NCBI GenBank assembly: GCA_903884005.1
Contig: CAISDA010000011.1
Span: forward strand, 1-55,161
DNA length: 55,161 nucleotides
Origin: an uncultured Ignavibacteriota bacterium
Lineage (GTDB): Bacteria; Bacteroidota; Ignavibacteria; UBA10030; UBA8401
Direction: 5' to 3'
Shown: positions 3,120 through 51,736 of the stretch, in pieces
Layout of the letters: each line of letters begins with the position of its first letter
How positions within the stretch are numbered: position 1 is the stretch's first letter
Translations under genes and position numbers: made by a program
The notes under the pieces: generated by a model
Told to the model about the DNA's origin: nothing
The model's input: the letters and a program-made list of their open reading frames with translations, nothing else
The model's database searches: none

Positions 3120-3150
3120 TTGACTCGTGCGGCATCAACCGCTATCTTCG
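3120..3150 (+). promoter_or_regulatory. Possible promoter of phage-like genes
   Basis: TTGACT (3120-3125) is followed after 17 bases by TATCTTCG (3143-3150), close to TAnnTTTG. It sits 80 bases before the start codon of the first phage-like gene. Confidence 0.4.
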
Positions 3151-3231
3151 CTACAAAGTATAAATATGCAATTATCCCACGGAGGGCGATCGTTCAACGG
3201 TCGGCCTCTTTTTATTTTACAGGAGGTCCCA

Positions 3232-3834: not shown

Positions 3835-3849
3835 TACAGGAGAAATTCA

Positions 3850-12507: not shown

Positions 12508-15500
12508 ATGAAAAATCGATCCGTCATCGTTCTTCTTTTCCTTTTCGAGATACTATTCCACCATTCAGTTTTCGCACAGACGCTCAACCCGGCGATGGAC
12601 GATGCACTGCGTCCGCGGCTTCTGTTTAAGGGGAGCAACGTTATGGTCTTTTCCGGATCTGCCGGCGGGCGAACCGACTTGAAACTGAAAATGGGGACAC
12701 TGCCTGGATTATTTACAACGGCCGCCGTTCCGTTTCCAGGCGCAGCACTCTATCTCCGCCCCGATGCGCTGTCGCTTCCCATCGGCGCCATCTATGCTGT
12801 TCTAACAAATTCGGACAGCACTTCGTTGGCCGGCATTCAGGCCCAGGCCGCGATCAATTCGAATATCGTCGTTTCCAATACGATAGGATTCATCATCGAG
12901 TCTCCGAATTCTGCTACGGCGCTTGCACCGATCGGCGTTGAAACGAACAGCGCGCCGCTGTTCCGCTGGACGTCCGTGCCGGGTGTGCCTGCATACCAAC
13001 TGATCTTGTCGAAGACGCCGTTTCAGGTCACCAAAGATCCTGTCTCCGGCGAATTGAGCGTCGTGGGCGCCAACATTATTTGGCGGTACTCGACGACCGC
13101 CACATCCGCCGTGTACGGCTCCACGAATGCGAATTCATCCTTAAGCCTGGGCACGGCGCCGCCGTTGATCCCCGGCAACGAATACAACTACACGATTCTC
13201 AATGTCTATGATCCCGACGGAAACTCCGCATATACGAGCGATGTCTTTGGCGGCGTGGTGTCATTCAAATTTACCGCTCCAACAACGATCCAGGCGCCCA
13301 CGCTTCGCTCGCCGGCAGAGAACGCGACGTTTTATGCCGACAACATCATCACATTCAGCTGGGACCCCGTTCCCAACGCCAACTTATATACGTTTTATTT
13401 ATTTCAACGGGTGACAACGACCAGCGGTGCGAAACAGGAATTTGATTTGCCGCTATGGAGTTCGACACTGACAAGCACTATTATAGATTATCAAGCAAAG
13501 GGAAGCCTGCCGCGCGGAAAATATCTCTGGTATGTATCGGTGAGCGATGCGGCGGGCAACGGCAATGCAAGCAAAGCGGTTTTGTTCAATTATGCGATCG
13601 ACATGGGAAAGATTCGGCTTCAGGCTGTTCCCACGATAGGATCGGGAAATCTGGTCGGGCTCGAAATCCGCGCACGCGCTATAAAAGACGGTGCATCGCC
13701 CACCAATCCATTCATCATTGGCAACGATCGGATCATCAACGACAGCCTCGTGGCCGGAACGTATCAGTTTTCAGGATCGAAGGTGGGCTATGCCGATACG
13801 ACCATCACTGTCGTCATTCCTCTAACGCCCCTCAATGGATCGTCGGTCGATGTGATCGTTCCGCTCAGGGCGCTGCCTGCGACCATTTCGGGGACCGTGC
13901 TCGATCAGGCATCGCTTCCAGTCTCGGGAGCGACAGTGCAATTGGTGAACCTCCTCACGGCTTCTCAACAATCCGCGCAGACTTCAAGTGCAGGACAATT
14001 CAGCATCAGCACTGAAGGCGGGACCTATTCTGTGCAGGCAACCAAACCGGGCTATATTCCTTCAAGTTCTGTCGCTATCACTGTTGCCGTGGGAGACCAT
14101 AAAGTGCTTCCGGCGGCTTTAAGCATCCGGGCAGATCAAGCCACAGTCAGCGGCACGATCGTCAACGATGTGGGAACTCCGGTATCAATGGCGACGGTCA
14201 CCGCATCGGCAACGACCGCCATCGGATTGCAAACACAGACAGTGATCACCAATGCGTCCGGGAATTATTCTTTTAACAATGCGACTACATTGTCATCCGG
14301 CAATTGGTCCATCGCCGCATCGAAAGACGGGTTCGTTTCGGCTGCCGCGCGACAGATCACACTCTCGCTCGGAGAGTCGCGACAGTTGGAAAATATCGTG
14401 CTCCTTCCGAAGGCGAACACGATCAACGGCTCCGTCACCGAATTGATCGTGACAAACGGTTCGTCGGGAAATATTCCGCTCAAAGATGTCGTCGTCACAG
14501 CCCGTCCGTTGGCCGGTGCCGATATTACCACCACCACGTCGCTGACCGGGCAATTTACGCTGAGTCTGAAACAGGGGACGTATCATATACAGGCATCGCA
14601 AGACAATTATGGAATAGCCCCTGGCAGTCAGTCAGGATACGACGTCACCGTGTCCGTCGGTCAAACGGTGACGGGCATTAATTTTTCTCTTCAGGCGAAT
14701 CCTTCCTCGGTGTCGGGTTCTGTCTCGTTGTCCGATGGAACGTCTGTGAGTGGGGCTGCAATTTCGTCGTCGGGTGGAACATCGGCGTTGAGCTCGGCGA
14801 ACGGTTCATACACGGTCAGCCTTCCGGCGGGTAGTTTCACGTTGTCTGTGTCGAAGGATGGATATGGAGCGCCGCCTCCGATCGCCGTATCGGTTGCCGC
14901 CGGTCAGAATTTACGCGGAGTCAATTTTCAACTCTCGCCCAATGCCGCCGTGATCTCCGGAGCAGTGCAGAGCGCCGGCGAAGCGGTGGCCGGAGCGCTT
15001 CTCGTTGCCCTGAATACGACCAGCGGCGACTCACTGTCTTCCATGGCCTCGTCAACAGGCCTCTTTTCATTGAGCGTTCAACCGGGTACCTGGAAAGTGA
15101 CAGCAAGCAAGGCCGGATTCATTTCCGCCGCAAGTACGGTCACTGTAGGGCCGGGCCAGCGCAGCGGAGCAAATGTGTTTGTCCTCGTGGCCAACACAAC
15201 CCAGATTAACGGCATCGTATCCGACGGCAGCGCGACAATCCGAAATGCCTCCGTCGCGATCGAGGAAGCCGGCAATCCTTCCAATGCCGTTGCCACAACG
15301 AGTAAGGATGACGGTTCGTTCACCTCGACGGTGACGGCCGGAAAATCCTATACCGTGACCGTGTCCAGTATCGGCTACGTGACCAAATCTGCTGCGACCG
15401 GCGTTCTTGCAGCGGGGAAATCAACAGCCCTTTCGTTCACTCTCGCTATCGCACCGTCATCGGTGTCCGGCGTGGTGATCAATAATTTTTCTCTGCCCCT

Positions 15501-18500
15501 GTATCCGGCAAAAGTGTACGTCCAGTCTCAAACGTATCGGCTGCTCGACAGCACAACGACGGACAACACCGGCGCATACCGCATCGGTCTGTCGGCCGGA
15601 ACGTTCACGATCATCTCTCGACTACCCGGCTACATTGCCGACAGCGTTTCGGTTACACCCACGATCGGGCAATCACTTTCCGGCATCAATCTTCGGCTCA
15701 CCGAAAATTTTGCCGTCATCTCCGGGACGATCACCGGAAGAAGTATTCCGCTGGCGAACGCATTGGTCAATGTCTCGGGAAATAACGGAGGAGCTACGGT
15801 GACCTCCGGTTCGGATGGCAGTTTCCTCCTCTCGCGTCTGGTGGGGGGAGTGTATTCAATTAAAGTCACTCGCGACACGTATGGAGATACGACGCTCTCG
15901 GCGACGCTCTCCGGCGGACAGTCGCGGCAATTTGTGATCGACCTTATCGCTCTCGATGGAAAGATCAATGGCACGATCAAATCACTGATCGGACAGCCGA
16001 TTGCTGGCGCGACAGTGTTCATCCGAAATACGACAGGCAAAGCGTATACGACGGTCAGCGGAGGCGATGGAACATACACTCAGGTATCGCTGCCTTCCGG
16101 AAAATACCGGATCAATGCTGCGAAGAGCGGATATTCAAGCGTTAAAATCGATTCGGTCGTATTGACAAGTACGTCGTTGACGGGAACATCGGTCATCGCA
16201 GACTTCGCGCCCAATACACTCAGGGTCAAAGGCCGGATCACCGATGCCGCAACCGCCTCCGGTGTGAGCGGCATTACGGTTGCCGTTTCGGGTACGATCG
16301 GTTCGGGTTCTGCTCTCACAAACACCTCCGGAGATTATCTGATCGATAATCTTGCTCTCTCATCGTACACGCTGTTGGCGTCCAAGAGCGGCTATACCAC
16401 AGTCTCGCGAACGATCTCGCCGGTCGCCTCGGATACACTGTTGACTACGGACATTCAGCTCGCCGTCAATAATGGTACCATCTCCGGCACGGTGAAGAAC
16501 GATGCGGGCGCCCCGCTGTCGTTCAGCGTTTCACTGAAAGCAACTTCACGCACAGCGACGTCGGCCGCCACTGCAGACGCGAATGGCAATTTTACGTTTT
16601 CCAATATTTCGCGTGATTCGACGACCGTTACGACCGATTTTTTCCGTGAAGGGTATGATAATGTTGCCACTCTTGTAGCGTTCCCGACGGGTCAATCGTC
16701 GGTAACGGGCGTCGCTTTGGTGGTGGTGCCCCACACAAGTGAAATTGACGGCAGCGCCGGTGTTGCCGACGCGTTGCTCCAATTGACCGAGGCAACAGGA
16801 AAAATTTCATCGCGCCTCGTCAACTCACGACCAGATAAGAGCTACAGCTTTACTCTGCTGCCTTCGGGCAATTATACGCTGAAGCCGGCCAAGGACGGAT
16901 TCTCATTCACACCGGCGACACAATCGATCATCCTGGCTTCATCACAGATAGCGACGCTTGCTTCGTTCTCCGCGGTCGCAGACACCGGATCGATCCTGGT
17001 GAGAGTGACCGAGCAAACAACGAATGCCGGTATGGCCGGCGTTACGGTCTCTGTCGTCAGTTCCGATACGACGGTGGTCAAAGCCGGAACGACCAACGCG
17101 AACGGCGACGCATTGTTTTCAAATCTTCTTGCGAAGGGCCGAACGTATGTCGTGCGCGTATCGCGCGCCGGATATTCATCCGATGCATCGCAGCAAAATC
17201 CTCCCCTGCCCACAAATGGCCTCGTGAGCGTTCAGTTCAAACTCATCGGCAATTCATCGTCGTTGACAGGGAGAGTTGTCCGTTCGGGCACCGGCTCCGC
17301 CCTCGGCAGCGCGCAGGTGACAACCCGCCGCTCAACGGGTGAACAGTATTCCGTTGTCACGGACGCTTCCGGCGCGTATGCGTTCAAAGGAATTCCGAAC
17401 GATAATTTCGTGGTCATCGCCTCTAAAGCCGGGTTCCGATCGGATACATTATCTGTTGCGGTTGCTGCAGCCGAGAACAAAGCGGCGCCTCGCGACCTCT
17501 CATTGGTGCCTACAACCGTCGGCATCAGGGGTTCTGTGGTCTACGAAAATGTCGGCGTCTCTAATCTCACCGTGACGGCGGTCTCTGCAAGTACGGTCAC
17601 AACTCAAACCGACGCGTCGGGCGGCTTCGTGTTCACCGATCTGCCGGCTCTGCTGAACACGGATACGACGATCTATCAGATCACGGTGGTCAAAGACGGC
17701 CTTTCGCCGCGTTCAGTGAAAGTCGTGATCCCGAAGACACAGGTCGGTCAGACTCTGTCTCTGGCCCCGATCATTCTGCCGAGCGGCAGGATCAGTTTCA
17801 CGGTCACCGATGGTCTCCACCCGATTGAAGGAGTGAGGGTCCTCTTTACGCCTGCAAACGGCGTGTCTGCGGAATCCTTTACGCCCGTCACAGGTATCTT
17901 TGCATCAGGCGGAACACTCGAAAAAGGGATCCAGCGATTCTCCCTGTCGAAGGCGACGTATCTTTCACCGGGTGCGAATGCACTGTCAATTCAACTCGAA
18001 ACGGATACAACCAGGAAATTGTCGTTCAGCGTCCTTCTGCCGTTCAGACTTGCAACGGCCGCAGAGATCACGGCGACGGATGACGCGTTCATTTCCGCAA
18101 CGGCGCGAGTAAAAAACAATGCCGATGTTGCCACGCTCTATTATAAGAAGGAATCGGGATCATCGTTCACTGCTGTTGCGATGACCAGATCGAACGACAC
18201 GAGCTTCACCGGAAAAATCCCTGCGCAATTCTCCACCGAGAAACTCAGTTACTATGTCGGCGTGAAGCGGGATACCATCGTCTATACGAGCGATGTCCAA
18301 ACGGCCGCCCCTTCGGCGCGCGGCATCCTGTCGTCGATCGATTTTGACCCGAGTCTCGACCATGCGGTGCTCCGTCCGGCGGACGAATACCGCATCTCGA
18401 TCGTGGCGCGTGACGGAGCGAATTCCGCGATGGGAGCAAAACTCCTTGACCCTGTGAAAGGGAAGATCTCGTGGGCGTACGATTCCACCGCGCTTGCGAT

Positions 18501-19698
18501 CACGGCGAAGGACACAACTGCGCTGATCAGGACGAAAGGTAAAACGGGTGTGTATGCCGTCACGGCGACGGCAATACTGAACAATGTAAGCGTCTCTCAG
18601 TCGTTTTCCGTGACGATGGCGAATGTCGTCATGAAAGAGATCACGATCGGCGGACTGCCCGCAGGCGGCGAATTGAACAACGCGGCGCGCGGATTGCAAC
18701 TCACGATCGGCGGACGCGATACAAGCGGGAAAAGCGTCAACGTGGGGAGCAGCATTCTGTGGATGCTCTCACCGCCGAGCGCGGGCACGATCTCACAACG
18801 AGGTTTATTATCTGTCGATTCGACGCTGCTGGGAAAAATTGTTGTGACGGCGAAAGACGGCATTTCAAACCTCTCGCAGAACATCACGATCAGCGTGGTC
18901 GTCACGATCGATTCGAGCCATGCATACTATCTGACGGACAAGTTCGCAATGGAACTTCGCATTCCCAAGAAGGCGGTCAACGCTCCCATCGACCTGCAGT
19001 TGGCGGACGCGACGTTCGGTCCCGCGAAGAAATTCGTGTTCGTGAAACGGACCGGCCAGAATTTTGTAGCGTCATCAAATCTGTACTATCTCTCGTACAA
19101 GGGAGACGCCCTTCCGGGCGATTCGTTAAAGCAAACCGCCTCGCTTCTTTTGGCCGAGGATGCATCGATGAAGTACTATGGAGGGGAAAAAATGATGGGC
19201 CTCTATGACCCCATCGCACTCGAGTGGACAACGCTTCCGGCGGCTCCATCGACATTGACGCTGGGAAAACAAAGCGGTGTGATGTCTACAGTGTTCCCGG
19301 GATTGCAGACCGATGTGCTTTCGCACCTCAAGACGCAGTACACGCTCCTGGTCCTCAATCAACCTCTGGGCCTTACGCACGTTGCGGTCCTGCCGAATCC
19401 GTTTTCACCGGATGTCTCTCCGTTGAAGATCGGGTATATCGTCAGCACCACCGATCAACAGGCGCTGATGTGGATCACCATCTATAACATCCGGGGCGAA
19501 CTTGTGCGGACGCTGTTGGACGGCGAGAGGCAATACCCGGGACGCTACGGCAGCAGATCGAGTTCGAAAGAAATTGTGTGGGATGGGAAAGCGAATGACG
19601 GTTCTACCGCGCGCAATGGCCGCTATGTCATTCAACTCAGGGCCAAAGACAGCACGGGAGAAAAAGTTGAACTCATTCAGGTAATCTTAATTAAATAA
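12508..19698 (+). CDS. Giant surface protein with about 16 carboxypeptidase-regulatory-like repeats
   Basis: A 2396-aa secreted protein. It has a signal peptide (about 1-24), fibronectin-III-like domains (about 150-365), then about 16 beta-sandwich repeats of roughly 70-95 residues (about 458-1850) of the carboxypeptidase regulatory-like type. Each opens with a variant of xxISGTVxxxxGxPVxGAxV and contains a T-x-x-x-G-x-Y/F core. Bacterial Ig-like domains follow (about 1870-2130). The C-terminus (about 2290-2396) is a FlgD-Ig/T9SS-like domain with LPNPFSP, WDGKANDGSTARNGRYVI and a final QVILIK. It is likely a surface adhesin, matrix or scaffold protein exported by T9SS. It starts an apparent three-gene operon with a PorV-like protein and a barrel-like protein. 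Repeats are diverged, so recent slippage is not indicated. Confidence 0.88.
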   Translation: MKNRSVIVLLFLFEILFHHSVFAQTLNPAMDDALRPRLLFKGSNVMVFSGSAGGRTDLKLKMGTLPGLFTTAAVPFPGAALYLRPDALSLPIGAIYAVLTNSDSTSLAGIQAQAAINSNIVVSNTIGFIIESPNSATALAPIGVETNSAPLFRWTSVPGVPAYQLILSKTPFQVTKDPVSGELSVVGANIIWRYSTTATSAVYGSTNANSSLSLGTAPPLIPGNEYNYTILNVYDPDGNSAYTSDVFGGVVSFKFTAPTTIQAPTLRSPAENATFYADNIITFSWDPVPNANLYTFYLFQRVTTTSGAKQEFDLPLWSSTLTSTIIDYQAKGSLPRGKYLWYVSVSDAAGNGNASKAVLFNYAIDMGKIRLQAVPTIGSGNLVGLEIRARAIKDGASPTNPFIIGNDRIINDSLVAGTYQFSGSKVGYADTTITVVIPLTPLNGSSVDVIVPLRALPATISGTVLDQASLPVSGATVQLVNLLTASQQSAQTSSAGQFSISTEGGTYSVQATKPGYIPSSSVAITVAVGDHKVLPAALSIRADQATVSGTIVNDVGTPVSMATVTASATTAIGLQTQTVITNASGNYSFNNATTLSSGNWSIAASKDGFVSAAARQITLSLGESRQLENIVLLPKANTINGSVTELIVTNGSSGNIPLKDVVVTARPLAGADITTTTSLTGQFTLSLKQGTYHIQASQDNYGIAPGSQSGYDVTVSVGQTVTGINFSLQANPSSVSGSVSLSDGTSVSGAAISSSGGTSALSSANGSYTVSLPAGSFTLSVSKDGYGAPPPIAVSVAAGQNLRGVNFQLSPNAAVISGAVQSAGEAVAGALLVALNTTSGDSLSSMASSTGLFSLSVQPGTWKVTASKAGFISAASTVTVGPGQRSGANVFVLVANTTQINGIVSDGSATIRNASVAIEEAGNPSNAVATTSKDDGSFTSTVTAGKSYTVTVSSIGYVTKSAATGVLAAGKSTALSFTLAIAPSSVSGVVINNFSLPLYPAKVYVQSQTYRLLDSTTTDNTGAYRIGLSAGTFTIISRLPGYIADSVSVTPTIGQSLSGINLRLTENFAVISGTITGRSIPLANALVNVSGNNGGATVTSGSDGSFLLSRLVGGVYSIKVTRDTYGDTTLSATLSGGQSRQFVIDLIALDGKINGTIKSLIGQPIAGATVFIRNTTGKAYTTVSGGDGTYTQVSLPSGKYRINAAKSGYSSVKIDSVVLTSTSLTGTSVIADFAPNTLRVKGRITDAATASGVSGITVAVSGTIGSGSALTNTSGDYLIDNLALSSYTLLASKSGYTTVSRTISPVASDTLLTTDIQLAVNNGTISGTVKNDAGAPLSFSVSLKATSRTATSAATADANGNFTFSNISRDSTTVTTDFFREGYDNVATLVAFPTGQSSVTGVALVVVPHTSEIDGSAGVADALLQLTEATGKISSRLVNSRPDKSYSFTLLPSGNYTLKPAKDGFSFTPATQSIILASSQIATLASFSAVADTGSILVRVTEQTTNAGMAGVTVSVVSSDTTVVKAGTTNANGDALFSNLLAKGRTYVVRVSRAGYSSDASQQNPPLPTNGLVSVQFKLIGNSSSLTGRVVRSGTGSALGSAQVTTRRSTGEQYSVVTDASGAYAFKGIPNDNFVVIASKAGFRSDTLSVAVAAAENKAAPRDLSLVPTTVGIRGSVVYENVGVSNLTVTAVSASTVTTQTDASGGFVFTDLPALLNTDTTIYQITVVKDGLSPRSVKVVIPKTQVGQTLSLAPIILPSGRISFTVTDGLHPIEGVRVLFTPANGVSAESFTPVTGIFASGGTLEKGIQRFSLSKATYLSPGANALSIQLETDTTRKLSFSVLLPFRLATAAEITATDDAFISATARVKNNADVATLYYKKESGSSFTAVAMTRSNDTSFTGKIPAQFSTEKLSYYVGVKRDTIVYTSDVQTAAPSARGILSSIDFDPSLDHAVLRPADEYRISIVARDGANSAMGAKLLDPVKGKISWAYDSTALAITAKDTTALIRTKGKTGVYAVTATAILNNVSVSQSFSVTMANVVMKEITIGGLPAGGELNNAARGLQLTIGGRDTSGKSVNVGSSILWMLSPPSAGTISQRGLLSVDSTLLGKIVVTAKDGISNLSQNITISVVVTIDSSHAYYLTDKFAMELRIPKKAVNAPIDLQLADATFGPAKKFVFVKRTGQNFVASSNLYYLSYKGDALPGDSLKQTASLLLAEDASMKYYGGEKMMGLYDPIALEWTTLPAAPSTLTLGKQSGVMSTVFPGLQTDVLSHLKTQYTLLVLNQPLGLTHVAVLPNPFSPDVSPLKIGYIVSTTDQQALMWITIYNIRGELVRTLLDGERQYPGRYGSRSSSKEIVWDGKANDGSTARNGRYVIQLRAKDSTGEKVELIQVILIK

Positions 19699-42704: not shown

Positions 42705-42959
42705 ATGTCTTCGACTCAGATATCTACGTCACTTGCCGTCAGCGAAAACGGGTTTCTCTTTCTGCCCACAACCGGAGAAACCTTCACGGTGAATGAGACC
42801 GGCAGATTCATACTGCGGCGCCTCCAGGAAGGACGTGAACAGCAGGAGATCATTTCCTCACTCATCGATGAGTTTGATGTTGAACCGGTCGACGCTCAGC
42901 GCGATGTACTCGACTTCATCGGTCAACTCAGACAATATCACCTCACCGACACACAATGA
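42705..42959 (+). CDS. PqqD-family (RRE-like) peptide-binding protein
   Basis: An 84-aa protein with the PqqD fold signature: NGFLFLPTTGETFTVNETGR, then a winged helix (FILRRLQEGREQQEIISSLI) and the acidic helix EFDVEPVDAQRDVLDFIGQL. PqqD-like domains (RiPP recognition elements) bind leader peptides and present them to modifying enzymes. The start at 42705 is chosen because it begins the conserved domain; an in-frame ATG at 42624 would add a hydrophobic stretch outside the fold. Its stop overlaps the ATP-grasp start by four bases. No separate short precursor-peptide gene is visible next to it; the best leader-like sequence is the N-terminus of the PLP decarboxylase two genes downstream. Confidence 0.8.
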   Translation: MSSTQISTSLAVSENGFLFLPTTGETFTVNETGRFILRRLQEGREQQEIISSLIDEFDVEPVDAQRDVLDFIGQLRQYHLTDTQ

Positions 42960-43996
42960 AGATAGCCGTCACGGGTTTGAATAACACAGACAATCCCGCT
43001 CCGGGAGTGCCGGTTATCAGGGCTCTCCGGGACCGATGGCCTGATTCACTGCACGTGGTGGGCCTCTTGTACGACGCACTGGAACCGGGCGCATACCTGG
43101 CAGACGTTGCCGATGCAAACTATATGATCCCATACCCATCGGCGGGATTGGAACAACTCTTCACCCGGATCTCCAGTATTCACGAAGTGGAAAAATTCGA
43201 TATCATCATTCCGACGCTCGATTCCGAACTGAACGGCTTCATCAAACTGGCTCCGCGTCTGGCGGCGCTCGGCATCAAGTTGTTCCTTCCCACAGAAGAT
43301 CAACTCCGATTGCGTTCGAAGGACAAACTTGTCGACTTCTGCTCGGCTCACGGTATCATCGTCCCCCGAAACGTCCTTGCGACGTCGGTGCAGGACCTCT
43401 ATACGATCGCACAGGAGTTCGAATATCCTGTTGCCATCAAGGGAATTTTCTACGACGCCGCAATCGTCAATAATCTGGATGAGGCTATCGCTGCATTCCG
43501 CCGTATGCAGGCAAAATGGGGATTGCCGGTCGTCGTGCAGGAATTTATCGCCGGCGATGAGTATAACGTGTGCGCGCTTGGAGACGGTGCCCGCACCATC
43601 GGAGCCGTTGCAATGAAAAAACTCTACGTCACGGACAAGGGCAAAGGCTGGTCCGGTATTACGATCAACGATCCGGCGTTGCTCGAGATCGCCCAAAAGA
43701 CCATCGCCGCATTGCAATGGCGGGGCGGCATCGAACTCGAATTCATCCGCGAGCGGGAAACGAATTCATATTATCTGCTTGAAATTAATCCGCGTTTCCC
43801 GGCGTGGGTGTATCTGGCGGTCGGCGCAGGCCAGAATCTTCCCGCCGCGCTGGTCGATCTGATCACAGGGGCCGCAGTGACGCCGTTCGAAAAGTATTCG
43901 GTTGGGAAAATGTTCGTCAGATATTCCTGGGATCATATCACCGATATCGCGCAGTTCGAGTCACTGACTGTACATGGAGCGCTTCGTCATGGATAA
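42956..43996 (+). CDS. ATP-grasp ligase of the PqqD operon
   Basis: A 346-aa cytoplasmic enzyme. The N-terminal Rossmann-like part (MKIAVTGLNN, about 1-105) and the ATP-grasp fold (about 110-310) resemble carbamoyl-phosphate synthase large-chain-like ligases. Visible elements are the lysine strand PVAIKGIF, the hinge VVQEFIAGDEYN, and the metal-binding GIELEFI and LLEINPRFP. Such enzymes join a carboxylate to an amine or thiol through an acyl-phosphate. The start overlaps the PqqD-like gene, and the stop overlaps the PLP decarboxylase gene by eight bases. Likely substrate is an amino acid or a peptide carboxylate, possibly delivered by the PqqD-like protein; this is inference. Confidence 0.88.
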   Translation: MKIAVTGLNNTDNPAPGVPVIRALRDRWPDSLHVVGLLYDALEPGAYLADVADANYMIPYPSAGLEQLFTRISSIHEVEKFDIIIPTLDSELNGFIKLAPRLAALGIKLFLPTEDQLRLRSKDKLVDFCSAHGIIVPRNVLATSVQDLYTIAQEFEYPVAIKGIFYDAAIVNNLDEAIAAFRRMQAKWGLPVVVQEFIAGDEYNVCALGDGARTIGAVAMKKLYVTDKGKGWSGITINDPALLEIAQKTIAALQWRGGIELEFIRERETNSYYLLEINPRFPAWVYLAVGAGQNLPAALVDLITGAAVTPFEKYSVGKMFVRYSWDHITDIAQFESLTVHGALRHG

Positions 43997-45347
43997 AAAA
44001 AAATATGAACGTCCTGTCATCCTGAAGCAGCAGTCGGGACTGATGAATAAATTCGGCAGTGCGACCTCCACGCAGCCGATGACCGACATAGAGGGCGTTC
44101 CCGTTGCAGAACTGGCGGCAGCATACGGTTCGCCGCTGTTCGTGCTGTCCGAAAAAAAAATGCGCGACACACAGCAGCAATGCCAGCGGATCTTCAGATC
44201 GCGATACCCGAAGGTCCAATTTGCATGGTCGTACAAGACGAATTATATGAATGCGGTGTGTTCGATCTTCCACAGCGAAGGTTCCTGGGCGGAAGTGGTG
44301 TCGGAATTCGAGTTTGACCGGGCGCGGCACTTGGGCGTCCGCGGCGAACACATCATCTTTAACGGCCCGGCAAAAAGCGCTGCGGCGCTTGAAAAAGCCG
44401 TCCGCGCACACTCCAAGATCCACATCGATCATTTCGATGAATTGTACGAACTCATCGAGATCACGACATCGCTCGGCCTGAAAGCGGACGTTGCGATACG
44501 CGTCAATGTTGACGTCGGGATTTATCCCAAATGGGACAGGTTCGGATTCAACTATGAGAATGGCGAGGCGCGCGAGGCGTTGAAACGGATCGCCGCAAGC
44601 AAGACGCTCCGCATCGTGGGACTCCACATGCATATCGGTACGTATATCATGAGCACCGAGCCGTTCCGTGTCGCCGTGTCAAAACTTGTTGCGCTTGCCA
44701 ACTGGCTGAAGCAGCAACTGGCCATCGACCTCGACTATATTGACGTCGGCGGCGGATTGCCGTCGCACAACACGCTGAAAGGCCAGTATTTGCAGGCCGA
44801 CGAGACATTGCCGGCGCTCGAGCAGTTCGCCGATGCCATCACCGCGCCGCTGTTCGAGCTCGAATCGCACGGCGACGCCATGCCGACACTGATCCTTGAA
44901 TCAGGCCGGGCCCTCGTCGATGGGGCCGGATACCTCATCAGCACCGTGCTCGCCGTCAAGCGGCTCTCGGACGGAAAACGCGCCTACGTCATCGATGCCG
45001 GCATTAACCTGCTCTTCACCAGCCTCTGGTATAAACACAAAATGGTCCCCGCGCAGCCGACCGGCGTCATGCGCGAACAGGCGAATATCTACGGTCCGCT
45101 CTGCATGAATATCGACTGCATCCAGGAAGACGCGTCCGTTCCCGCGCTCAAGAAGGGGGACCGCGTTGTGCTGATGAACGTCGGCGCGTATACGATGACA
45201 CAGTGGATGCAATTCATCACATTTCGGCCGGCGATCGTCCTGATCACGGCCGACGGTTCGCCGCACGTCATCCGCAAGGCTGAATCATTGGAATATGTCA
45301 TGTCGCTGGAGGAAATTCCTCCATCGCTTCGATCACTCTCAGCATAG
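43989..45347 (+). CDS. Fold-III PLP decarboxylase (DAP/ornithine type) with leader-like N-terminus
   Basis: A 452-aa enzyme of the alanine racemase-like fold-III decarboxylases (LysA, ornithine/arginine decarboxylase). PLP lysine is K83 in AWSYKTNYMNAV. Other motifs are GLHMHIGTY, the phosphate-binding VGGGLPS, ESGRALVDGAG, and the active-site cysteine in YGPLCMNID. The first 35 residues (DKKKYERPVILKQQSGLMNK and onward) precede the fold and look like a RiPP leader: basic start and a YxxP motif as in lasso-peptide leaders. The ATG at 43989 is preferred; one at 43974 would add five residues. It overlaps the ATP-grasp gene by eight bases. Substrate cannot be told from sequence. Confidence 0.88.
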   Translation: MDKKKYERPVILKQQSGLMNKFGSATSTQPMTDIEGVPVAELAAAYGSPLFVLSEKKMRDTQQQCQRIFRSRYPKVQFAWSYKTNYMNAVCSIFHSEGSWAEVVSEFEFDRARHLGVRGEHIIFNGPAKSAAALEKAVRAHSKIHIDHFDELYELIEITTSLGLKADVAIRVNVDVGIYPKWDRFGFNYENGEAREALKRIAASKTLRIVGLHMHIGTYIMSTEPFRVAVSKLVALANWLKQQLAIDLDYIDVGGGLPSHNTLKGQYLQADETLPALEQFADAITAPLFELESHGDAMPTLILESGRALVDGAGYLISTVLAVKRLSDGKRAYVIDAGINLLFTSLWYKHKMVPAQPTGVMREQANIYGPLCMNIDCIQEDASVPALKKGDRVVLMNVGAYTMTQWMQFITFRPAIVLITADGSPHVIRKAESLEYVMSLEEIPPSLRSLSA

Positions 45348-45355
45348 CGGAATTG

Positions 45356-47497
45356 ATGGAACGACGCACATTCATCGATGCAGTGATCTTCGCCTATGCG
45401 CAGATCTTTTTCAGCAACAGGCGCTGGTTTGGCGTGATCGTCTTGTGTGCATCATTCATCAGCCCCGTCATCGGCATCTTCGGCCTCATCGGCGCGCTTG
45501 TGTCCACGCTGCTGGCCTACGGATTGAAGTACAATCAAGAACGCATTCGCTCCGGGTTCTATGGCTTCAACGGCATCCTCTTCGGCGCCGCTGCTGCATA
45601 TTTTTTTCAAATCACGCCGCTGGTGGCGGCGGTCATTCTCGTCTTTTTGGTGATTGTGTTCTTCGCCGCTGCTGCGCTGGAACATTATCTCGCAACGGCA
45701 TTCAATCTGCCGGGCCTCAGCCTTCCGTTCATCCTCTCGCTCTGCGTGTTTATTATTTTTTCCTCCAATTTTGAGTGGATGGTGCATGCCGCTCCGCCGA
45801 GGGAAGTGGAATTGGCGTTTCAGGTTCCCGAAGCAATGCGCTTTTATTTTGAATCGCTCGGCTACATCATCTTTCAGCCGCATTTCATTTCCGGCATGAT
45901 CATCGCAGCGGCGATCCTGGCGTTCTCTCGCGTGCTGTTTGTCAACAGCATTATCGCATACGCGCTGAACAGCCTGCTCGTTCATGTGCTCTATCCCGAC
46001 CCGACTCCGGCGTTCATGATCCAATCGTCGTTCAATGCGATGCTCGTCTCGTTCGCGCTGGGCGGCAGCCTCATCATCGTTTCGAAAAAAACGACGCTGC
46101 TCGTCGCGCTCTCGACCGTCGTCTCATTGATCTTTACGATTTTTTTTACCGGCATCTTCGCCGCGCACTCGCTGCCGGTTCTCGTGCTTCCGTTCAATGT
46201 CGTGACGCTGGCCACCATCTATTCGCTGAAATTCCGGCAGGAACACAGCGACCTGGTCCTTCTCTATTTCCTTCCCGGATCGCCGGAGGAAAATTATTAT
46301 TATCATCACAATAGAAAATTGCGATTCGACCGGTACCGCCTCATCTTTCCTGAATTGCCATTCTTCGGCGAGTGGACGGTAACCCAGGGGTACGACGGCA
46401 GCCTCACGCACCGCGGCGATTGGCGCCACGCCTTGGATTTTGTCATCACCGATAACAACGGAAATGAATTTGCCGGGCATGGCACTTCTCCGGCCGATTA
46501 TTTTTGCTATAATACCCCCGTTGCGGCGCCGATGGATGGAGAGGTCGTCCGCATTGTCGATGGCCTGCCGGATGCGCCGATCGATACGCCGGACCTGGAG
46601 CATAATTGGGGAAATACGATCGTCCTGTCGCACCAATACGAGCTCTACTCGTCGCTCTCGCATCTGAAAGCCGGCAGCATACTGGTCAAAAAGGGAGACA
46701 CGGTCCGGAAGGGGCAGGTCCTTGCGAGATGCGGCAGCAGCGGACGCTCTCCCGCACCCCACCTGCATTTTCAATTTCAACTGAGCGAGCGGGTCGGCGA
46801 AAAGACATTCGCATTTCCGATCTCCCAATATCTGCAGCAGGACAAGGATGGTTTCGTACTGCGGACGTTCGAGATCCCGGAACAGGGAGCACGCGTCAGG
46901 AATATTGAGATCCACAATGGACTCCGAAAGGCGTTCGAGTTCCGCCCCGATGAGTCGTATCACTTCGTGTGCACTTCCGGCGCCGCCACATTCGAAGAAT
47001 CCTGGTCGGTCACGATCGACGCGTACAACATCCTGTCGATCACGTCGTCCAGAGGAACGACTGCCTATCTCCAGGTGAGGGATAAGATCATGATGTTTAC
47101 CGGCATTGTCGGCAACCATGATAACGCATTGTACCATTTTTATCTCTGTGCGCTCAGCGCTCCGCTTGGCTTCATCGAACAGCTTCAGTGGACCGACAGC
47201 TATCCGGTCTCGGCGGCAATTTCCCTGCCGGTGCGTTTTTTCCCTGAATTCTTCCTTGTGTTCGTGAACCAACTTTCCGCCGATGCGGAATTCTGCATGA
47301 ACAAAGTTTCCAATGGCGAAACGCAGTTTGTGATCTCATCACGCCAGCGGCTGCGGGGCCGCGGCCTGCTGCGGTTCTTCAACGAAACCAAGGAAGGCTC
47401 TCTCGTGATTCGGCAGGATGGTGAAATCGAAGCCCTCACCGTCCGCTCTAATTCTGATACATTCTCCGCAGTCCGCAAACATATGGAACACTCATGA
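45356..47497 (+). CDS. Urea transporter fused to M23 peptidase
   Basis: A 713-aa protein. The ATG at 45356 is chosen; a TTG one codon upstream is possible. The N-terminal half (about 1-300) has about ten membrane helices of the urea transporter family, with the family signature GFNGILFGAAAAYF. Residues about 330-480 form an M23 (LytM) domain with zinc residues in HRGDWRHALDF and PHLHFQF. About 230 further beta-rich residues follow. M23 enzymes cleave peptidoglycan cross-links or act as binding modules; the four expected metal residues appear to be present. A channel joined to a cell-wall-active domain suggests a transport path through the inner membrane positioned at the wall. It begins eight bases after the decarboxylase stop and overlaps the next gene by four. 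Confidence 0.9.
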   Translation: MERRTFIDAVIFAYAQIFFSNRRWFGVIVLCASFISPVIGIFGLIGALVSTLLAYGLKYNQERIRSGFYGFNGILFGAAAAYFFQITPLVAAVILVFLVIVFFAAAALEHYLATAFNLPGLSLPFILSLCVFIIFSSNFEWMVHAAPPREVELAFQVPEAMRFYFESLGYIIFQPHFISGMIIAAAILAFSRVLFVNSIIAYALNSLLVHVLYPDPTPAFMIQSSFNAMLVSFALGGSLIIVSKKTTLLVALSTVVSLIFTIFFTGIFAAHSLPVLVLPFNVVTLATIYSLKFRQEHSDLVLLYFLPGSPEENYYYHHNRKLRFDRYRLIFPELPFFGEWTVTQGYDGSLTHRGDWRHALDFVITDNNGNEFAGHGTSPADYFCYNTPVAAPMDGEVVRIVDGLPDAPIDTPDLEHNWGNTIVLSHQYELYSSLSHLKAGSILVKKGDTVRKGQVLARCGSSGRSPAPHLHFQFQLSERVGEKTFAFPISQYLQQDKDGFVLRTFEIPEQGARVRNIEIHNGLRKAFEFRPDESYHFVCTSGAATFEESWSVTIDAYNILSITSSRGTTAYLQVRDKIMMFTGIVGNHDNALYHFYLCALSAPLGFIEQLQWTDSYPVSAAISLPVRFFPEFFLVFVNQLSADAEFCMNKVSNGETQFVISSRQRLRGRGLLRFFNETKEGSLVIRQDGEIEALTVRSNSDTFSAVRKHMEHS

Positions 47498-48126
47498 GCA
47501 TCACACGCATATCCGGCATGCTATTCCTCCTGTTGTGGGTGCTCGGTCCGGCACCAGCATTGTGCGCCCAGACCGATGAAAAGGTGCAAGCCTTTGCTGC
47601 ATCAACGAACGAAGAAACAGCAAAGAATTACACCAATGCGATCCAGATCATGAAAACGATCAATGAAAAATACCATTCTGATTATTTGATATCGCTGCGG
47701 CTCGGATGGCTGCATTACCTTTCAAAGGACTACGAGTCGTCCATTCGCTATTACCAGGAAGCTGAAAAAATAAGCGACAACAGCATCGAATCTCTGCTGG
47801 GCATCACCTACCCGTACGCCGAGCTCAAAAAATGGGATCAGATCCAGGATGTCTACAACACGATCCTCTCGAAAGACAAATTAAACTATGCGGCAAATCT
47901 GAGGCTGGGGCAGATCTACTATCACCGGGCGAACTATGTTCTGGCCAAAAAATATTTTACCGTCCTCTACGAGCAGTTCCCCTCCGACTATGAAACGAAC
48001 CTCTATCTCGGCTGGACGTATTACTACCTGGGCGCGCGGTCGAAAGCGCAGTTCCATTTCGTGAATGCGATGTCGATGAATGGATCGGATACGAGCGCGC
48101 TCAAAGGCTGGGGACTGACAAAATGA
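47494..48126 (+). CDS. Periplasmic TPR protein of the PqqD operon
   Basis: A 210-aa protein with an N-terminal signal sequence (about 1-25; ALCAQ could be a signal-peptidase I or lipoprotein-like site, but the cysteine lies within ALCA, not a clean lipobox). About four tetratricopeptide repeats follow, seen in repeated patterns such as LRLGWLHYLSKDYESSIRYY, LRLGQIYYHRANYVLAKKYF and LYLGWTYYYLGARSKAQFHF. TPR proteins of this sort commonly bridge inner- and outer-membrane parts of a pathway. Both ends overlap neighbours by four bases (ATGA), tying it to the urea-transporter fusion and the barrel protein. Confidence 0.85.
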   Translation: MSITRISGMLFLLLWVLGPAPALCAQTDEKVQAFAASTNEETAKNYTNAIQIMKTINEKYHSDYLISLRLGWLHYLSKDYESSIRYYQEAEKISDNSIESLLGITYPYAELKKWDQIQDVYNTILSKDKLNYAANLRLGQIYYHRANYVLAKKYFTVLYEQFPSDYETNLYLGWTYYYLGARSKAQFHFVNAMSMNGSDTSALKGWGLTK

Positions 48127-48947
48127 GAATCCTTTCTGCAGTCGCAGCGCTGTGTGCTGCATCGATCGTATGGAGCGCCTCCGCAGCGGCACAACAAGCA
48201 TACATTATTCCGTCGCTCTATGGAACCTCCGGATCGTATTCGAACGGCAGCTCCTCTGCATCGATCGACGCCTATGCGCTTGCACAGATCGGTGGGAATG
48301 ATTTTCTCTCCGTCGCTGTCGGCAGTCTTACCATCGACGCAGCGGAGTGGACATACGCGCAATCTTTGCTCGCCTGCGCGGGAACGAAAAATTTCTATCC
48401 CTTTTCTCTGAGCCTCCGCCTGGGTATGGTCGGTGGTGAGTATTCGGCAAAGCAATATCGGTACACCTACACAGACAAAATTTTTCTTGTAAGCGCCGGC
48501 GGCAGGTATAATTGGGACATGTTTTATTTCCGCGCCGACTATACGCATTTGGACCTGCAAGGATATAAGAATGTCGTCGCCCGGCAGGTATCAATCGGGG
48601 CTGAATGGGTCGCGTCCGAATCCATTTCACTTACGGTATCCCCGCTGTACTCCACACTGACTGATGGACGGAATCTTTTCGGAGTCACGGTCGGAGGCAC
48701 ATTCATTCCTGCCGCACCGCTCACGATCCGCTGCACCGGTTTCATGGGCGCGCGCGCGTACTTCTTCGATCCGGACCTTCTTGTTGAATACAACCAGGAT
48801 GCCACGCAAAAATATCTGGCAGGCCTGTCGGCCGAATATTCAGTTATTCCGGAACTCAAAGTGAGCTGCGCATATCATGTGACAGGATTTTCCGACTACA
48901 CCATCCGCTACGCGAGTGTCGGCCTCATCGGAACGATTTTGTTGTAG
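48123..48947 (+). CDS. Outer-membrane beta-barrel protein, YaiO-like
   Basis: A 274-aa protein with signal peptide (about 1-24). The mature part is made of alternating strands (SYSNGSSSASIDAYALAQIG, FYFRADYTHLDLQGY and others) and the chain ends in YASVGLIGTILL, all expected for a small outer-membrane barrel. The order TPR then barrel resembles YaiO-type outer-membrane proteins, where a TPR region precedes the barrel. It is the last gene of the six-gene operon and lies tail-to-tail with the sugar operon (24 bases apart). Likely outer-membrane outlet or anchor for the pathway; this is inference. Confidence 0.8.
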   Translation: MRILSAVAALCAASIVWSASAAAQQAYIIPSLYGTSGSYSNGSSSASIDAYALAQIGGNDFLSVAVGSLTIDAAEWTYAQSLLACAGTKNFYPFSLSLRLGMVGGEYSAKQYRYTYTDKIFLVSAGGRYNWDMFYFRADYTHLDLQGYKNVVARQVSIGAEWVASESISLTVSPLYSTLTDGRNLFGVTVGGTFIPAAPLTIRCTGFMGARAYFFDPDLLVEYNQDATQKYLAGLSAEYSVIPELKVSCAYHVTGFSDYTIRYASVGLIGTILL

Positions 48948-48970: not shown

Positions 48971-49963
48971 TCAATACATCAATAATTCCCTGATTGTCTT
49001 CATGCTGACCGCGCCGCCCGTTGAAGTCGGATTTTTGAGATTGAAATGGGCGCTGGCATGGGCCGTCCTCAGCATGTCCTTGACGGAAAGGTTTTCGTGC
49101 ACGCCATAGAGAATGCCGGCGCAAAATGCATCCCCGGCCCCCACTGTTCCCTTGATGTCTTCGGGGCGTATCGCAATAGATGGCTCGTAGTGATACTCTC
49201 CCTGTGTATTCATGCAGATCCCGCCTTCGGGAAAATGTATCACCAGCTGCTTCTTGACCCCGAACGACATGATCTTTGCCGCTGCATCCTGAAGACTGTT
49301 GTGGTTGATGAGACCGTTTGTGCGAATCTGAATATTCGCGATGTGCGCCGCTTCCACTTCGTTGATCGTGAAATAATCCACATGCTTCATGCATGGCGTG
49401 ATGATGTCGTTGTACCGGGAACTATCTTCGGAAACGACGTCGACCGATGTTTCGTATCCCTCCGACTTCAGCATGCTCAACACCTTTGCGGCCTTTGTGC
49501 CGAACTGTGCGTCGGGAGCGTCCAATGCATCGAGCAGCAGCAGGTACCCGAGATGAAAAATCCTGGCGTTGGTGCGTATGCATTCGAAATGAGTTTCATC
49601 TAAAAATTGATTTGCTCCCCTGTAATGGAAAAATGTTCTTTTGCCGTTCGATTTCACCGTCATCACATCGGTGTACGACGTCAACGCTTTGTCGGTGATT
49701 GTTATATACGATGTATCGATGCCGTTCACCGTGAATGTGTCAGCGATCTGCCGGCCCGTTTCGTCGTTTCCAACGAGGCCCATCGCAGAGAGCGGAAGCC
49801 CCATATCGAATTTGGCTAGGTCCACAAGGCAGTTATGCGGTGCGCCGCCCGGACAGGCTTGAATGCTTTCAATGTTCGCCAGCATTCCTTCCTGCGGCAG
49901 GATATCGATGATCTTGACATAATCCATGATCAGGTTCCCGCCGGACATGATGCCGTTTCTCAT
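48971..49963 (-). CDS. PfkB-family carbohydrate kinase
   Basis: A 330-aa ribokinase-like sugar kinase starting at ATG 49963-49961 with GGAG just upstream. Motifs: N-terminal GGAPHNCLVDLAKF, sugar-binding region, and the C-terminal GTVGAGDAFCAG with catalytic Asp. Third gene of a minus-strand operon after a sugar isomerase and a class II aldolase. In that setting it would phosphorylate the ketose made by the isomerase (fructose or xylulose) so that the aldolase can split it. Substrate position (C1 or C6) is not evident from the sequence. Confidence 0.88.
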   Translation of the reverse strand: MRNGIMSGGNLIMDYVKIIDILPQEGMLANIESIQACPGGAPHNCLVDLAKFDMGLPLSAMGLVGNDETGRQIADTFTVNGIDTSYITITDKALTSYTDVMTVKSNGKRTFFHYRGANQFLDETHFECIRTNARIFHLGYLLLLDALDAPDAQFGTKAAKVLSMLKSEGYETSVDVVSEDSSRYNDIITPCMKHVDYFTINEVEAAHIANIQIRTNGLINHNSLQDAAAKIMSFGVKKQLVIHFPEGGICMNTQGEYHYEPSIAIRPEDIKGTVGAGDAFCAGILYGVHENLSVKDMLRTAHASAHFNLKNPTSTGGAVSMKTIRELLMY

Positions 49964-50042
49964 GATGCTCCTTGTGTATCCCTTACCGTTAAAAAACATT
50001 CACCATTAGAATCGTTGCGCTGAGGCGCTCTGCTGCGCACTA

Positions 50043-50909
50043 TCACGCTTTCCCGCAGCTGCCGAAGATGGTCATTTGCCCGGCGACGACCCTGCTGACA
50101 CTTTCCTGAACCTGCAGCATGATATCGGGGTATGCATTGTATTTGAGGTCCACATCCCTCTTGGTTATTGCGACATGTAACGTGTCGATGGCAGCCCGTG
50201 CCATCCCCGTGAAGAAATTGATCTTCGCTATTCCAAGGCCTATGGCTTTTTTAAAGTCTTCGTCCGATATACCCGAGCCCCCATGCAGAACAAGAGGGAT
50301 GCCGGATTTTTTGTGTATGGAATCCAATCGCTCAAAATCGAGCTTCGGCTCGCCCCTGTACCTGCCATGAGCGTTGCCGATGGCAACTGCCAGCGCGTCG
50401 ATCTGAGTCTTCTGTATGAAATCTTCAGCCAACGCCGGATCTGTATACATGGCGGCGTCGATCGTACCCATCAGTTCTCCGCCTTCGGAGCCGCCGACGG
50501 CCCCGAGTTCAGCCTCTACCGACACATTGACGGCATGACACAGTTTTGTTATTTCTCGTGTCTGGGCGATGTTGTCTTCGTAGGAGAGATGGGATCCGTC
50601 GAACATGACTGACGTGAATCCGCACCGTACGGCTGCGGCCACTGTTTCAAATTTCAATCCGTGATCGAGGTTCAGTGTTACCGGTACGCATGCTTTGTGC
50701 GCGCGCTTGATGACCGCCGCGGCGATCACTTCGATATCGACGTATGCCAGATGAACTTCCGCAATATTGAGTATGACAGGAGATTGCATCCGTTCAGCGG
50801 CGCTCACAACTGCCTCAAGGAGCTCGGTGTTGATCACATTAAAGGCGCCAACGGCATAGTTGCCTCTTGTGGCAGGCGCGAGAATATCTTTTAAATTAAG
50901 TAATGCCAT
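50043..50909 (-). CDS. Class II fructose/tagatose-bisphosphate-type aldolase
   Basis: A 288-aa TIM-barrel zinc aldolase of the FbaA/GatY/KbaY family. Motifs are NLDHG (zinc His), VMFDGSHLSYEDNI, EAELGAVGG, GNAHGRY, LHGGSGI and KINFFTGM. Phosphate and zinc residues appear complete. It splits a ketose phosphate to dihydroxyacetone phosphate and an aldehyde. The gene starts 12 bases after the isomerase stop and is followed after 79 bases by a PfkB kinase, giving a complete isomerase-kinase-aldolase set. The exact substrate (fructose, tagatose or xylulose phosphate) cannot be read from sequence. Confidence 0.92.
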   Translation of the reverse strand: MALLNLKDILAPATRGNYAVGAFNVINTELLEAVVSAAERMQSPVILNIAEVHLAYVDIEVIAAAVIKRAHKACVPVTLNLDHGLKFETVAAAVRCGFTSVMFDGSHLSYEDNIAQTREITKLCHAVNVSVEAELGAVGGSEGGELMGTIDAAMYTDPALAEDFIQKTQIDALAVAIGNAHGRYRGEPKLDFERLDSIHKKSGIPLVLHGGSGISDEDFKKAIGLGIAKINFFTGMARAAIDTLHVAITKRDVDLKYNAYPDIMLQVQESVSRVVAGQMTIFGSCGKA

Positions 50910-50921
50910 ATGCTCTCGTTT

Positions 50922-51605
50922 TTATTCTATGAATTTTTGATAATCGGTGCACAGGAGATGTGTTGGAATAACGTCCTCCTCAATGGCAGGGAAGCGTCCG
51001 ATCGTTTCGAAAAACCTGTTGTCCGTATTGTCATCGTTCACCATCGATACTTCACCGACCATCACTGTTCCTTTTTTCTTCTCGCCGTAGAAACGATGGT
51101 ATAGTTCCTGCGGAAGCGTAATGCTCTGCCCCGGCGCAAGACTCACCGTCCCGCCCGCCTCGATGGTTGTGACAGTCCCGTCTATGGACACAGTGATGTT
51201 CTTTTTAGACAATCCTTCACGCACCGTCGAGCCATACAGCTCGATGATCAGGTTGCCGCCTCCGCGATTAATGATATCCTCCATTTTATTCCAATGGAAA
51301 TGCATCGGAGTGACCTGCTCTTCCTGCACGATCATGATCTTTTCTGCGTAGGCTTTTGGATATCGTTTGCTTTTCAGCTTCCCGTTGCGGAGCGTGAAAA
51401 GGAGCAGCCCGGTTGTTCTGAAATCGCCTGTGCCGAAATCAGTGATATCCCAGCCCAATCCGAGATCAATAATTTCCTGTGTTGTGTTTTTATGCTGCTG
51501 CCAGTCGGCGATCGAGTACGAGGCGAAGTCAGGCATGGCGAATTTCATCGTTTTGAAAAATCTGACCGCATCATCAATGATGGAATTTATTTCGGAGCGC
51601 TTCAT
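50922..51605 (-). CDS. D-lyxose/D-mannose isomerase-like cupin enzyme
   Basis: A 227-aa cupin sugar isomerase. The ATG at 51605 has GAAGGA nine bases upstream; one at 51611 is also possible. Metal ligands are in MHFHWNKMED (H, H, E) and the late His is in LPQELYHRFYGE. The opening MKRSEINSIIDDAV and GLGWDITDFGTGDF fit D-lyxose isomerases, which interconvert D-lyxose with D-xylulose and D-mannose with D-fructose. First gene of the operon with an aldolase and a kinase, so it likely feeds one of these sugars into central metabolism. Confidence 0.85.
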   Translation of the reverse strand: MKRSEINSIIDDAVRFFKTMKFAMPDFASYSIADWQQHKNTTQEIIDLGLGWDITDFGTGDFRTTGLLLFTLRNGKLKSKRYPKAYAEKIMIVQEEQVTPMHFHWNKMEDIINRGGGNLIIELYGSTVREGLSKKNITVSIDGTVTTIEAGGTVSLAPGQSITLPQELYHRFYGEKKKGTVMVGEVSMVNDDNTDNRFFETIGRFPAIEEDVIPTHLLCTDYQKFIE

Positions 51606-51736
51606 ATGCATTGGTCCTTCATTAATGAATAAATTATCTCTGACCGATTCGGGAACGAAAGAGGCAGTGTGATCGCACCTACTCAGTGCTGCGATCTTTT
51701 TTACAAGGCCTTTGGTTTGTTCCGATCGCGTATCTT

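Follow-up and report, generated by a model that had tools for sequence, protein, structure and literature searches.

A six-gene operon of an uncultured Ignavibacteriota bacterium in which a PqqD-family protein may capture a leader-tagged decarboxylase

The stretch of DNA analyzed here (the window) is contig CAISDA010000011.1 of GenBank assembly GCA_903884005.1, 55,161 nucleotides (nt) from an uncultured Ignavibacteriota bacterium of the class Ignavibacteria. Six genes at positions 42705-48947, all on the + strand, form an operon whose decarboxylase begins with a short sequence resembling the leader of a lasso peptide. An initial annotation, made from the sequence alone, had described six same-strand genes joined by overlaps of 4 to 8 nt or an 8-nt gap, and the coordinates bear this out. 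The overlaps are of 4 nt between the genes for the PqqD-family and ATP-grasp proteins, 8 nt between those for the ATP-grasp protein and the decarboxylase, and 4 nt at each of the last two junctions, where the gene for a urea transporter (UT)-M23 fusion meets that for a tetratricopeptide repeat (TPR) protein and the latter meets the gene for a putative barrel. The decarboxylase and UT-M23 genes are separated by an 8-nt gap, counted from the ATG at 45356; an alternative TTG start lies at 45353. Pfam identifies five of the six proteins (PqqD, ATP-grasp, ornithine/diaminopimelate [DAP]/arginine decarboxylase, UT plus Peptidase_M23, and TPR), while the sixth has no family match in Pfam or NCBIfam. 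Pattern scans for promoters and terminators returned matches at chance level. The features are as follows, where RiPP stands for ribosomally synthesized and posttranslationally modified peptide, PLP for pyridoxal phosphate, and pLDDT for the predicted local distance difference test.

42705-42959, + strand: PqqD-family RiPP recognition element, 84 aa (PF05402, E 3.4e-16; predicted contacts N30, D67, F71)
42956-43996, + strand: ATP-grasp ligase, 346 aa (Pfam ATPgrasp_Ter, ATP-grasp_3)
43989-45347, + strand: PLP decarboxylase of the alanine-racemase fold, 452 aa (family matches, structure match, K83 in SYKTN, C372-M373)
44004-44057, + strand: leader-like tail, decarboxylase residues 6-23, YERPVILKQQSGLMNKFG (motif, low pLDDT)
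45356-47497, + strand: UT-fold channel, M23 peptidase and C-terminal beta-rich domain in one chain, 713 aa from the ATG
45374-46222, + strand: UT channel part (PF03253; Z 35.3 to dvUT 3k3f)
46343-46840, + strand: M23 (LytM) peptidase part, ends approximate (H352, D361, H436, H469, H471, numbered from the ATG at 45356)
46841-47494, + strand: C-terminal beta-rich domain of the UT-M23 protein (pLDDT mostly 85-95)
47494-48126, + strand: TPR protein with a signal-peptide-like N-terminus, 210 aa (Pfam)
48123-48947, + strand: putative outer-membrane barrel, 274 aa (judged from the sequence ends only)

Homologous loci were gathered from 97 sources by similarity to the window proteins, and 81 loci hold both PqqD and a tailed decarboxylase. 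Because these sources were chosen by that similarity, a sample of 294 genomes drawn from the window's class gives the less biased counts. Two loci, L082 and L126, are second copies of L033 and L035; they are included in the 81-locus counts and were excluded from the upstream-neighbor survey, the 77-pair motif counts and the search for small open reading frames (ORFs). Alignments A1, A4, and A5 were built from 20, 29, and 30 hand-picked loci out of about 90. Alignment A2, in which the L085 row is badly aligned, served as the query for the PqqD searches of solved relatives and of the class genomes; the PqqD residue counts and tail pairings given below come from a separate search.

The initial annotation held the six genes to be a single system, an idea that scattered orthologues would have broken. 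Instead, the genes cluster, and the operon recurs in many environmental bacteria. In the class sample, the decarboxylase, PqqD, and the fused UT gene share the identical 46 of 294 genomes. The decarboxylase profile matches 47 genomes at E 1e-60 or better; the additional one (G219) holds a distant relative with neither the tail nor the neighboring genes and was rejected as a member. The PqqD profile matches 49, namely the shared 46, G016, which is probably a broken assembly (its UT-M23 fragment starts at a contig end), and weak matches in G090 and G098. UT is found in 52, the shared 46 plus six with plain UT genes of about 280-320 aa; the UT open frames of the 46 span 674-834 aa, save for two of about 530 aa with M23 included (G024 and G028) and one of 364 aa on a contig of 3,023 bases (G255). 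Order is kept as well. PqqD directly precedes the ATP-grasp gene in 80 of the 81 loci, L085 having a 661-aa gene interposed. The decarboxylase is likewise followed by UT in 80 (L144 ends at the contig edge), and UT by a TPR gene in 75; of the remaining six, four are cut off by contig ends, L084 is without the gene, and L085 is without it within the 1.8 kb left on its contig. This gene order is not due to chance. When the UT-M23 protein was searched against named genomes, 45 loci were returned. Most come from Ignavibacteria and Bacteroidota, but L036, L064, L072, and L073 are recorded as Proteobacteria or Desulfobulbaceae; a further match, L077, covers the M23 part only. Partial versions occur too. 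L050 and L076 have UT-M23 and the TPR gene without the upstream genes, and in L076 the usual upstream neighbors are inverted (by inversion or misassembly). On contig 11 of G014 (L087), a UT-M23 remnant carries an in-frame stop, and the genome has neither the decarboxylase nor this PqqD, which looks like loss of the entire module.

The decarboxylase N-terminus reads MDKKKYERPVILKQQSGLMNKFGSATS, and its first ~25 residues carry the pattern [YF]xxPx[IVL]...G..NKFG, the YxxP signature of lasso-peptide leaders. Across 77 distinct tail/PqqD pairs the length of the motif is constant. Its first position is Tyr in 70 and Phe in 7, its fourth is Pro and its sixth Ile, Val, or Leu in all 77, and Gly, Asn, and Gly occupy positions 12, 15, and 18 in 75, 68, and 76 pairs, respectively. 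Position 16 (Lys21 of the window enzyme) is Lys in 76 and Gln in one, and position 17 is Phe in 70, Tyr in four, Ile in two, and Met in one. Beyond the motif, e.g., at positions 19-24, residues vary. The pattern was picked after the tails had been seen; every locus with both genes fits it. In the AlphaFold2 model of the decarboxylase, pLDDT falls below 50 at residues 1-4, 7-9, and 11-26, the rest being mostly confident; alignments with solved decarboxylases start at profile column 28 or beyond, and the LysA-like enzyme of the same genome is without the tail region. Judged from these alignments, the tail qualifies as a short, conserved linear motif, and the model indicates that it is probably not a structural part of the enzyme.

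The window PqqD scores 59.7 bits against PF05402 (cut-off, 23.4); its best NCBIfam match is lasso_PqqD_Strm, under that model's cut-off. The nearest solved relatives of its profile are TbiB1 (E 2.9e-13) and TfuB1 (3e-7), followed by 9x90 and 9x8z. In PMC13381572, the latter two are PbaB1 and LppB, and the TbiB1 and TfuB1 entries are counted as lasso recognition-element complexes. The same paper describes how LppB grips its leader: D70 holds the leader Tyr, N33 holds the Pro kink, and F74 packs against the Pro, with D70A weakening complex formation and N33A almost abolishing it. By gapless alignment, LppB N33, D70, and F74 correspond to N30, D67, and F71 of the window protein, so that the leader-binding residues, whose absence would, according to the initial annotation, have broken its single-system idea, are present. 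Among the 81 loci, position 30 is always Asn, position 67 is Asp in 74 and Ser in 7, and position 71 is Phe in 74, Tyr in 6, and Leu in 1. Of 11 listed residues of the LppB hydrophobic pocket, 10 map to positions where the family majority is hydrophobic or aromatic (T30 and L83 by extrapolation slightly beyond the aligned stretch), and V63 maps to an acidic residue; the window PqqD itself has Thr at position 32.

Tail and PqqD also vary together. All 7 Phe tails are paired with Ser67 and all 70 Tyr tails with Asp67, with no exceptions among the 77 distinct pairs. Phe, unlike Tyr, offers no hydroxyl to be held. Genomes in which the genes lie on split contigs follow suit: G255 combines an F tail with S, and G024 and G034 combine a Y tail with D. 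Two of the 77 PqqD columns separate the Phe-tail clade from the rest, as do 4 of the 452 decarboxylase columns besides the trivial terminal one. On the sequences compared, the switch is a single clean coordinated change, not many. These correspondences suggest that PqqD very probably binds the decarboxylase tail. That the tail instead plays a structural or regulatory role within the enzyme, and does not bind PqqD, is extremely unlikely. Its presence is as strict as that of the catalytic residues, as such a role would have it, but it is predicted to be disordered, it occurs in the class sample only in genomes having this PqqD, and known leader complexes show the same motif and the same corresponding PqqD residues. 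The genome's second PqqD, an unrelated protein encoded on contig 64, was rejected as a partner, scoring below zero against the operon PqqD family; its gene (L089, positions 5828-6178) adjoins those for an OPT transporter, a proline dehydrogenase, and an M20 peptidase.

The initial annotation had noted that no short precursor gene and no radical SAM partner accompany PqqD. Indeed, the six proteins match no radical SAM family, and the first point stands for a separate gene; the leader-like sequence, however, sits on the decarboxylase N-terminus. A profile of the tail, run against the 294 genomes, matched the same 46 at 47 places (two in G158), invariably on this decarboxylase; the remaining 17 matches had E values of at least 0.0037, and the next-best match in the window's own genome had E 0.48. 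No small ORF with a leader motif was common to the loci when 86 of them were searched between 3.5 kb before and 6.5 kb after the start of the decarboxylase gene. Small frames common to loci do exist, the largest cluster comprising 15 loci, but the eight largest clusters come from Bacteroidota-type loci only, lie inside the frames of larger neighbors, and none has a leader motif; eight single small frames fit a loose leader pattern by chance. We thus rejected a separate small precursor gene, there being no candidate near the loci and no match of the tail model other than the decarboxylase in the 294 genomes; these searches leave room for a distant precursor with a different sequence. As far as sequence comparison goes, the tail is not shared with any recognizable separate precursor. 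A RiPP pathway would be marked by a short precursor gene in the cluster that encodes a leader and a core; as tested, none was found.

The tail might nonetheless be a true RiPP precursor fused to the decarboxylase, a leader plus core that is modified and then cleaved to a peptide product. Such an arrangement would explain a leader motif paired with a recognition protein, as in lasso peptides, and the operon does encode a peptidase whose active site is intact. We consider it quite unlikely, however, as the residues past NKFG vary with no clear core end, the six proteins match no lasso cyclase or YcaO family either, and the UT-type pore is narrow for a peptide.

The nearest solved relative of the decarboxylase is FigC (7kh2: E 5e-87, Z 41.8, root mean square deviation [rmsd] 2.2 over 399 residues, 28% identity in the structural alignment); DAP decarboxylases and BtrK (Z 38.2) are also near. 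According to PMC7857480, FigC is an N-citrylornithine decarboxylase in which M355 replaces the acidic residue by which ornithine, arginine, and DAP decarboxylases grip the side-chain amine. That paper groups FigC with SbnH, AcsE, MccE, and BtrK, whose substrate amino acids are citrylated or are bound to a peptide-nucleotide or a carrier; DAP decarboxylases and a D-ornithine decarboxylase fall in the same clade. In the window's family, K83 (SYKTN) and C372-M373 show no variation among the 29 rows of alignment A4, and of 91 rows compared, 90 have Cys-Met at the active-site loop, the lone Cys-Glu belonging to a non-member, L163. Because of the active-site Cys-Met and the nearest relatives, we lean toward an acylated or tethered amino acid as the substrate. 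Two specific assignments were rejected. LysA (DAP decarboxylase) is disfavored by a score of 248.4 bits against the TIGR01048 cut-off of 297.9 and by Cys-Met in place of Cys-acidic; the genome's one other PF02784 decarboxylase has a CESGD motif and no tail, and the reading of the operon enzyme as a housekeeping LysA is therefore rejected. The N-citrylornithine decarboxylase FslC/FigC is disfavored by 227.7 bits against the NF041039 cut-off of 500. In the Phe-tail clade (family f10: L142, L144-L146, L148, L149, L154), Gln follows GPLCMNID at the active-site loop, possibly a substrate shift. The ATP-grasp protein keeps invariant residues (e.g., K122, K162, E202, E260, E276, N278, and R280) across 82-83 aligned homologues.

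The first ~320 residues of the UT-M23 protein score 165.2 bits against PF03253 (cut-off, 25) and form the complete UT fold, matching dvUT (3k3f) with Z 35.3 and an rmsd of 2.2 over 306 residues. The M23 part resembles LytM domains (Z about 14), and its active-site residues, the zinc-binding and catalytic His/Asp set H352, D361, H436, H469, and H471, are identical in all 91-92 homologues with a letter there. The C-terminal beta-rich domain lies outside all listed structural matches, which does not establish a new fold. Searches of phage and defense libraries gave matches to the M23 part, one weak match in the TPR region, or nothing. UT termini are cytoplasmic, the fold being an inverted repeat with both ends on the same side, and the outer loop that joins the halves presumably bears the N211 site of human UT-B. 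N211A is described as a deglycosylation mutant of that protein. Charge averaged over the homologues is basic at residues 61-70, 191-200, 241-250, and 291-300, the last of these, after the final UT helix, carrying 2.74 K/R and 1.29 D/E; the inter-half loop (141-160) and residues 211-220 are acidic. On our reading of which side each loop lies, equivalent loops of the two UT halves are oppositely charged. No hydrophobic segment was seen beyond residue 345 in the averaged homologue pattern. From the UT homology, the charge pattern, and the UT-B glycosylation site and termini, M23 and the C-terminal domain are probably cytoplasmic, and the cell-wall-active role that the initial annotation had given M23 is, by this reasoning, not supported.

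A cytoplasmic M23 would also suit an arrangement in which the tail is a peptide carrier. After capture by PqqD, the ATP-grasp enzyme would load an amino acid, via its side-chain carboxylate, on Lys21 of NKFG; the attached decarboxylase would act in cis, M23 would free the product, and the fused UT channel would export it. The near-constant lysine at this position (76 of 77 pairs) and the conservation of G..[N]KFG outside the PqqD-binding part are in keeping with this idea, as are, according to PMC7857480, the decarboxylation of carrier-protein-bound glutamate by BtrK and the action of MccE on a moiety that a peptide-nucleotide carries. The Gln of L151 at the Lys21 position speaks against it, and we regard a carrier role as unlikely.

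The sixth protein has a signal-peptide-like start, and in 12 of 15 compared family members the last residue is Phe, a common ending of outer-membrane barrels. It is a probable outer-membrane barrel on these sequence features, as had been anticipated, although the window protein itself ends in Leu. Its family is matched in 34 of the 81 loci, at times upstream; the outer-membrane part of the module is variable. In Bacteroidota-type loci, the next place is usually taken by a TPR protein of about 360-530 aa. A comparison of the Bacteroidota TPR-barrel with the window barrel by hhalign showed no homology (probability, 4.5%).

Upstream of the operon, genes for a PBP2-like transpeptidase (a penicillin-binding protein) and RodA/FtsW occur in 15 loci (e.g., L069, positions 1161-4251), 14 of them recorded as Bacteroidota and one, L064, as Alphaproteobacteria; none was seen in the stretches from the window's class, which reach about 6 kb upstream at most. 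Together with the TPR and barrel genes, and with the action of known M23 domains on peptidoglycan, these neighbors would fit an envelope module whose periplasmic M23 attaches a product to the cell wall or remodels the wall. This is very unlikely, as both UT ends lie on one side, residues 291-300 are basic and the inter-half loop acidic, equivalent loops are opposite in charge, no later hydrophobic segment exists in the averaged pattern, and the PBP2/RodA neighbors were not seen in the class stretches.

Other neighbors recur. A gene for an AraC-type regulator of about 199 aa typically lies just 5' of PqqD in 23 loci (e.g., L069, positions 4261-4851), comprising Bacteroidota-type loci plus L134 and L135; one examined has a sub-threshold HMA-like match, and it is possible that this protein regulates the operon. 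In some Ignavibacteria-type loci, genes for FG-GAP-like proteins flank or interrupt the operon (L033, positions 2470-4080; L034, positions 4502-5332, weak; L085, positions 5926-7911), and two of these three carry type IX secretion tails. In the window, the genes at 48971-51611 on the - strand encode a PfkB kinase, a class II aldolase, and a D-lyxose isomerase, a set that faces the operon and probably serves sugar use, and positions 12508-19698 encode a 2396-aa protein with 12 matched carboxypeptidase-regulatory-like stretches.

Taken as a whole, we propose, with a probability of roughly 0.6, that the operon encodes a module for assembling a small molecule, and that its RiPP-type recognition protein captures an enzyme, not a precursor peptide. 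PqqD would bind the YxxPx(I/V/L) tail as lasso B1 proteins bind leaders, and capture would bring the decarboxylase to the ATP-grasp ligase. The ligase would join an amino acid by an amide or ester bond, and the decarboxylase, as its Cys-Met pair and relatives suggest, would then strip the alpha-carboxylate from the acylated or tethered amino acid. At the cytoplasmic mouth of the UT-type channel, M23 might cut or trim the amide bond, and the chances are about even that the small product exits through the channel. More speculatively, the TPR protein and barrel could aid passage or use of the product in the outer envelope; such passage is doubtful. The initial annotation had foreseen a modified amino acid or peptide moved across, or attached to, the envelope. 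Supported here are a single conserved system and an ATP-grasp enzyme and decarboxylase that probably yield a modified amino acid next to an inner-membrane channel; the outer-membrane part varies among loci.

Several observations weigh against this proposal. The G..NKFG half of the tail, after YxxP, is not accounted for by docking alone. On the tree, the change from Y/D to F/S is one change in one clade, and the naive chance that column 67 is among the two separating columns is about 0.026. PqqD is on a separate contig in G024, G034, and G255, and is not adjacent in L085. The UT part reaches 91.7 bits against a cut-off of 274.6 for the urea-transport equivalog TIGR03441; it misses this curated cut-off. 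A UT-type pore suits small molecules, which limits the product. M23 domains are normally periplasmic or secreted, and acidic residues too are found in the stretch following the UT part.

Several parts of the proposed module have counterparts in known systems. The lasso B1 proteins (TbiB1, TfuB1, PadeB1) and LppB of the LPP RiPPs have the same discrete PqqD fold, with the Asn/Asp/Phe contacts described for LppB, and their leaders carry the same type of motif, [Y/W]xxPx[L/V/I]; there, however, the leader is on a short precursor, whereas here it is on the decarboxylase, and the asparagine-synthetase-like cyclase and B2 protease of the lasso pathway are families that these six proteins do not match. 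The FigC/SbnH/AcsE/BtrK/MccE group of the alanine-racemase fold shares the Cys-Met (as in FigC) and a ligase partner, but the window enzyme carries the leader-like tail, and its partner is an ATP-grasp enzyme in place of an NIS synthetase. Butirosin biosynthesis (BtrJ/BtrI/BtrK) offers the same BtrK-type decarboxylation of a carrier-bound amino acid, BtrJ being the ATP-grasp enzyme that loads the carrier; its acyl-carrier protein has no equivalent among these six genes, which have PqqD and the tail instead. The urea channels dvUT and UT-B have the same complete UT fold, here fused to M23 and a further domain. In borosins, the precursor is fused to its own methyltransferase, so that recognition peptide and enzyme likewise share one chain, but here there is no methyltransferase, and the peptide is N-terminal and probably bound by a separate PqqD. 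A search of the open-access literature, with many subscription papers outside its scope, found no paper on the operon or on a leader-tagged decarboxylase, in agreement with the initial view that no characterized system has this composition. We rate the arrangement as categorically new; its parts are known folds, except for the C-terminal domain of the UT-M23 protein and the unmodeled barrel.

A stand-alone PqqD without a visible precursor is hard to interpret in genome mining, and here the leader is hidden on an enzyme. If our proposal is correct, recognition elements also dock enzymes, searches confined to short precursors would miss such systems, and UT-M23 fusions would gain a biosynthetic context. 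Were the carrier role of the tail to prove true, RiPP recognition would drive a small-molecule assembly line without a precursor peptide.

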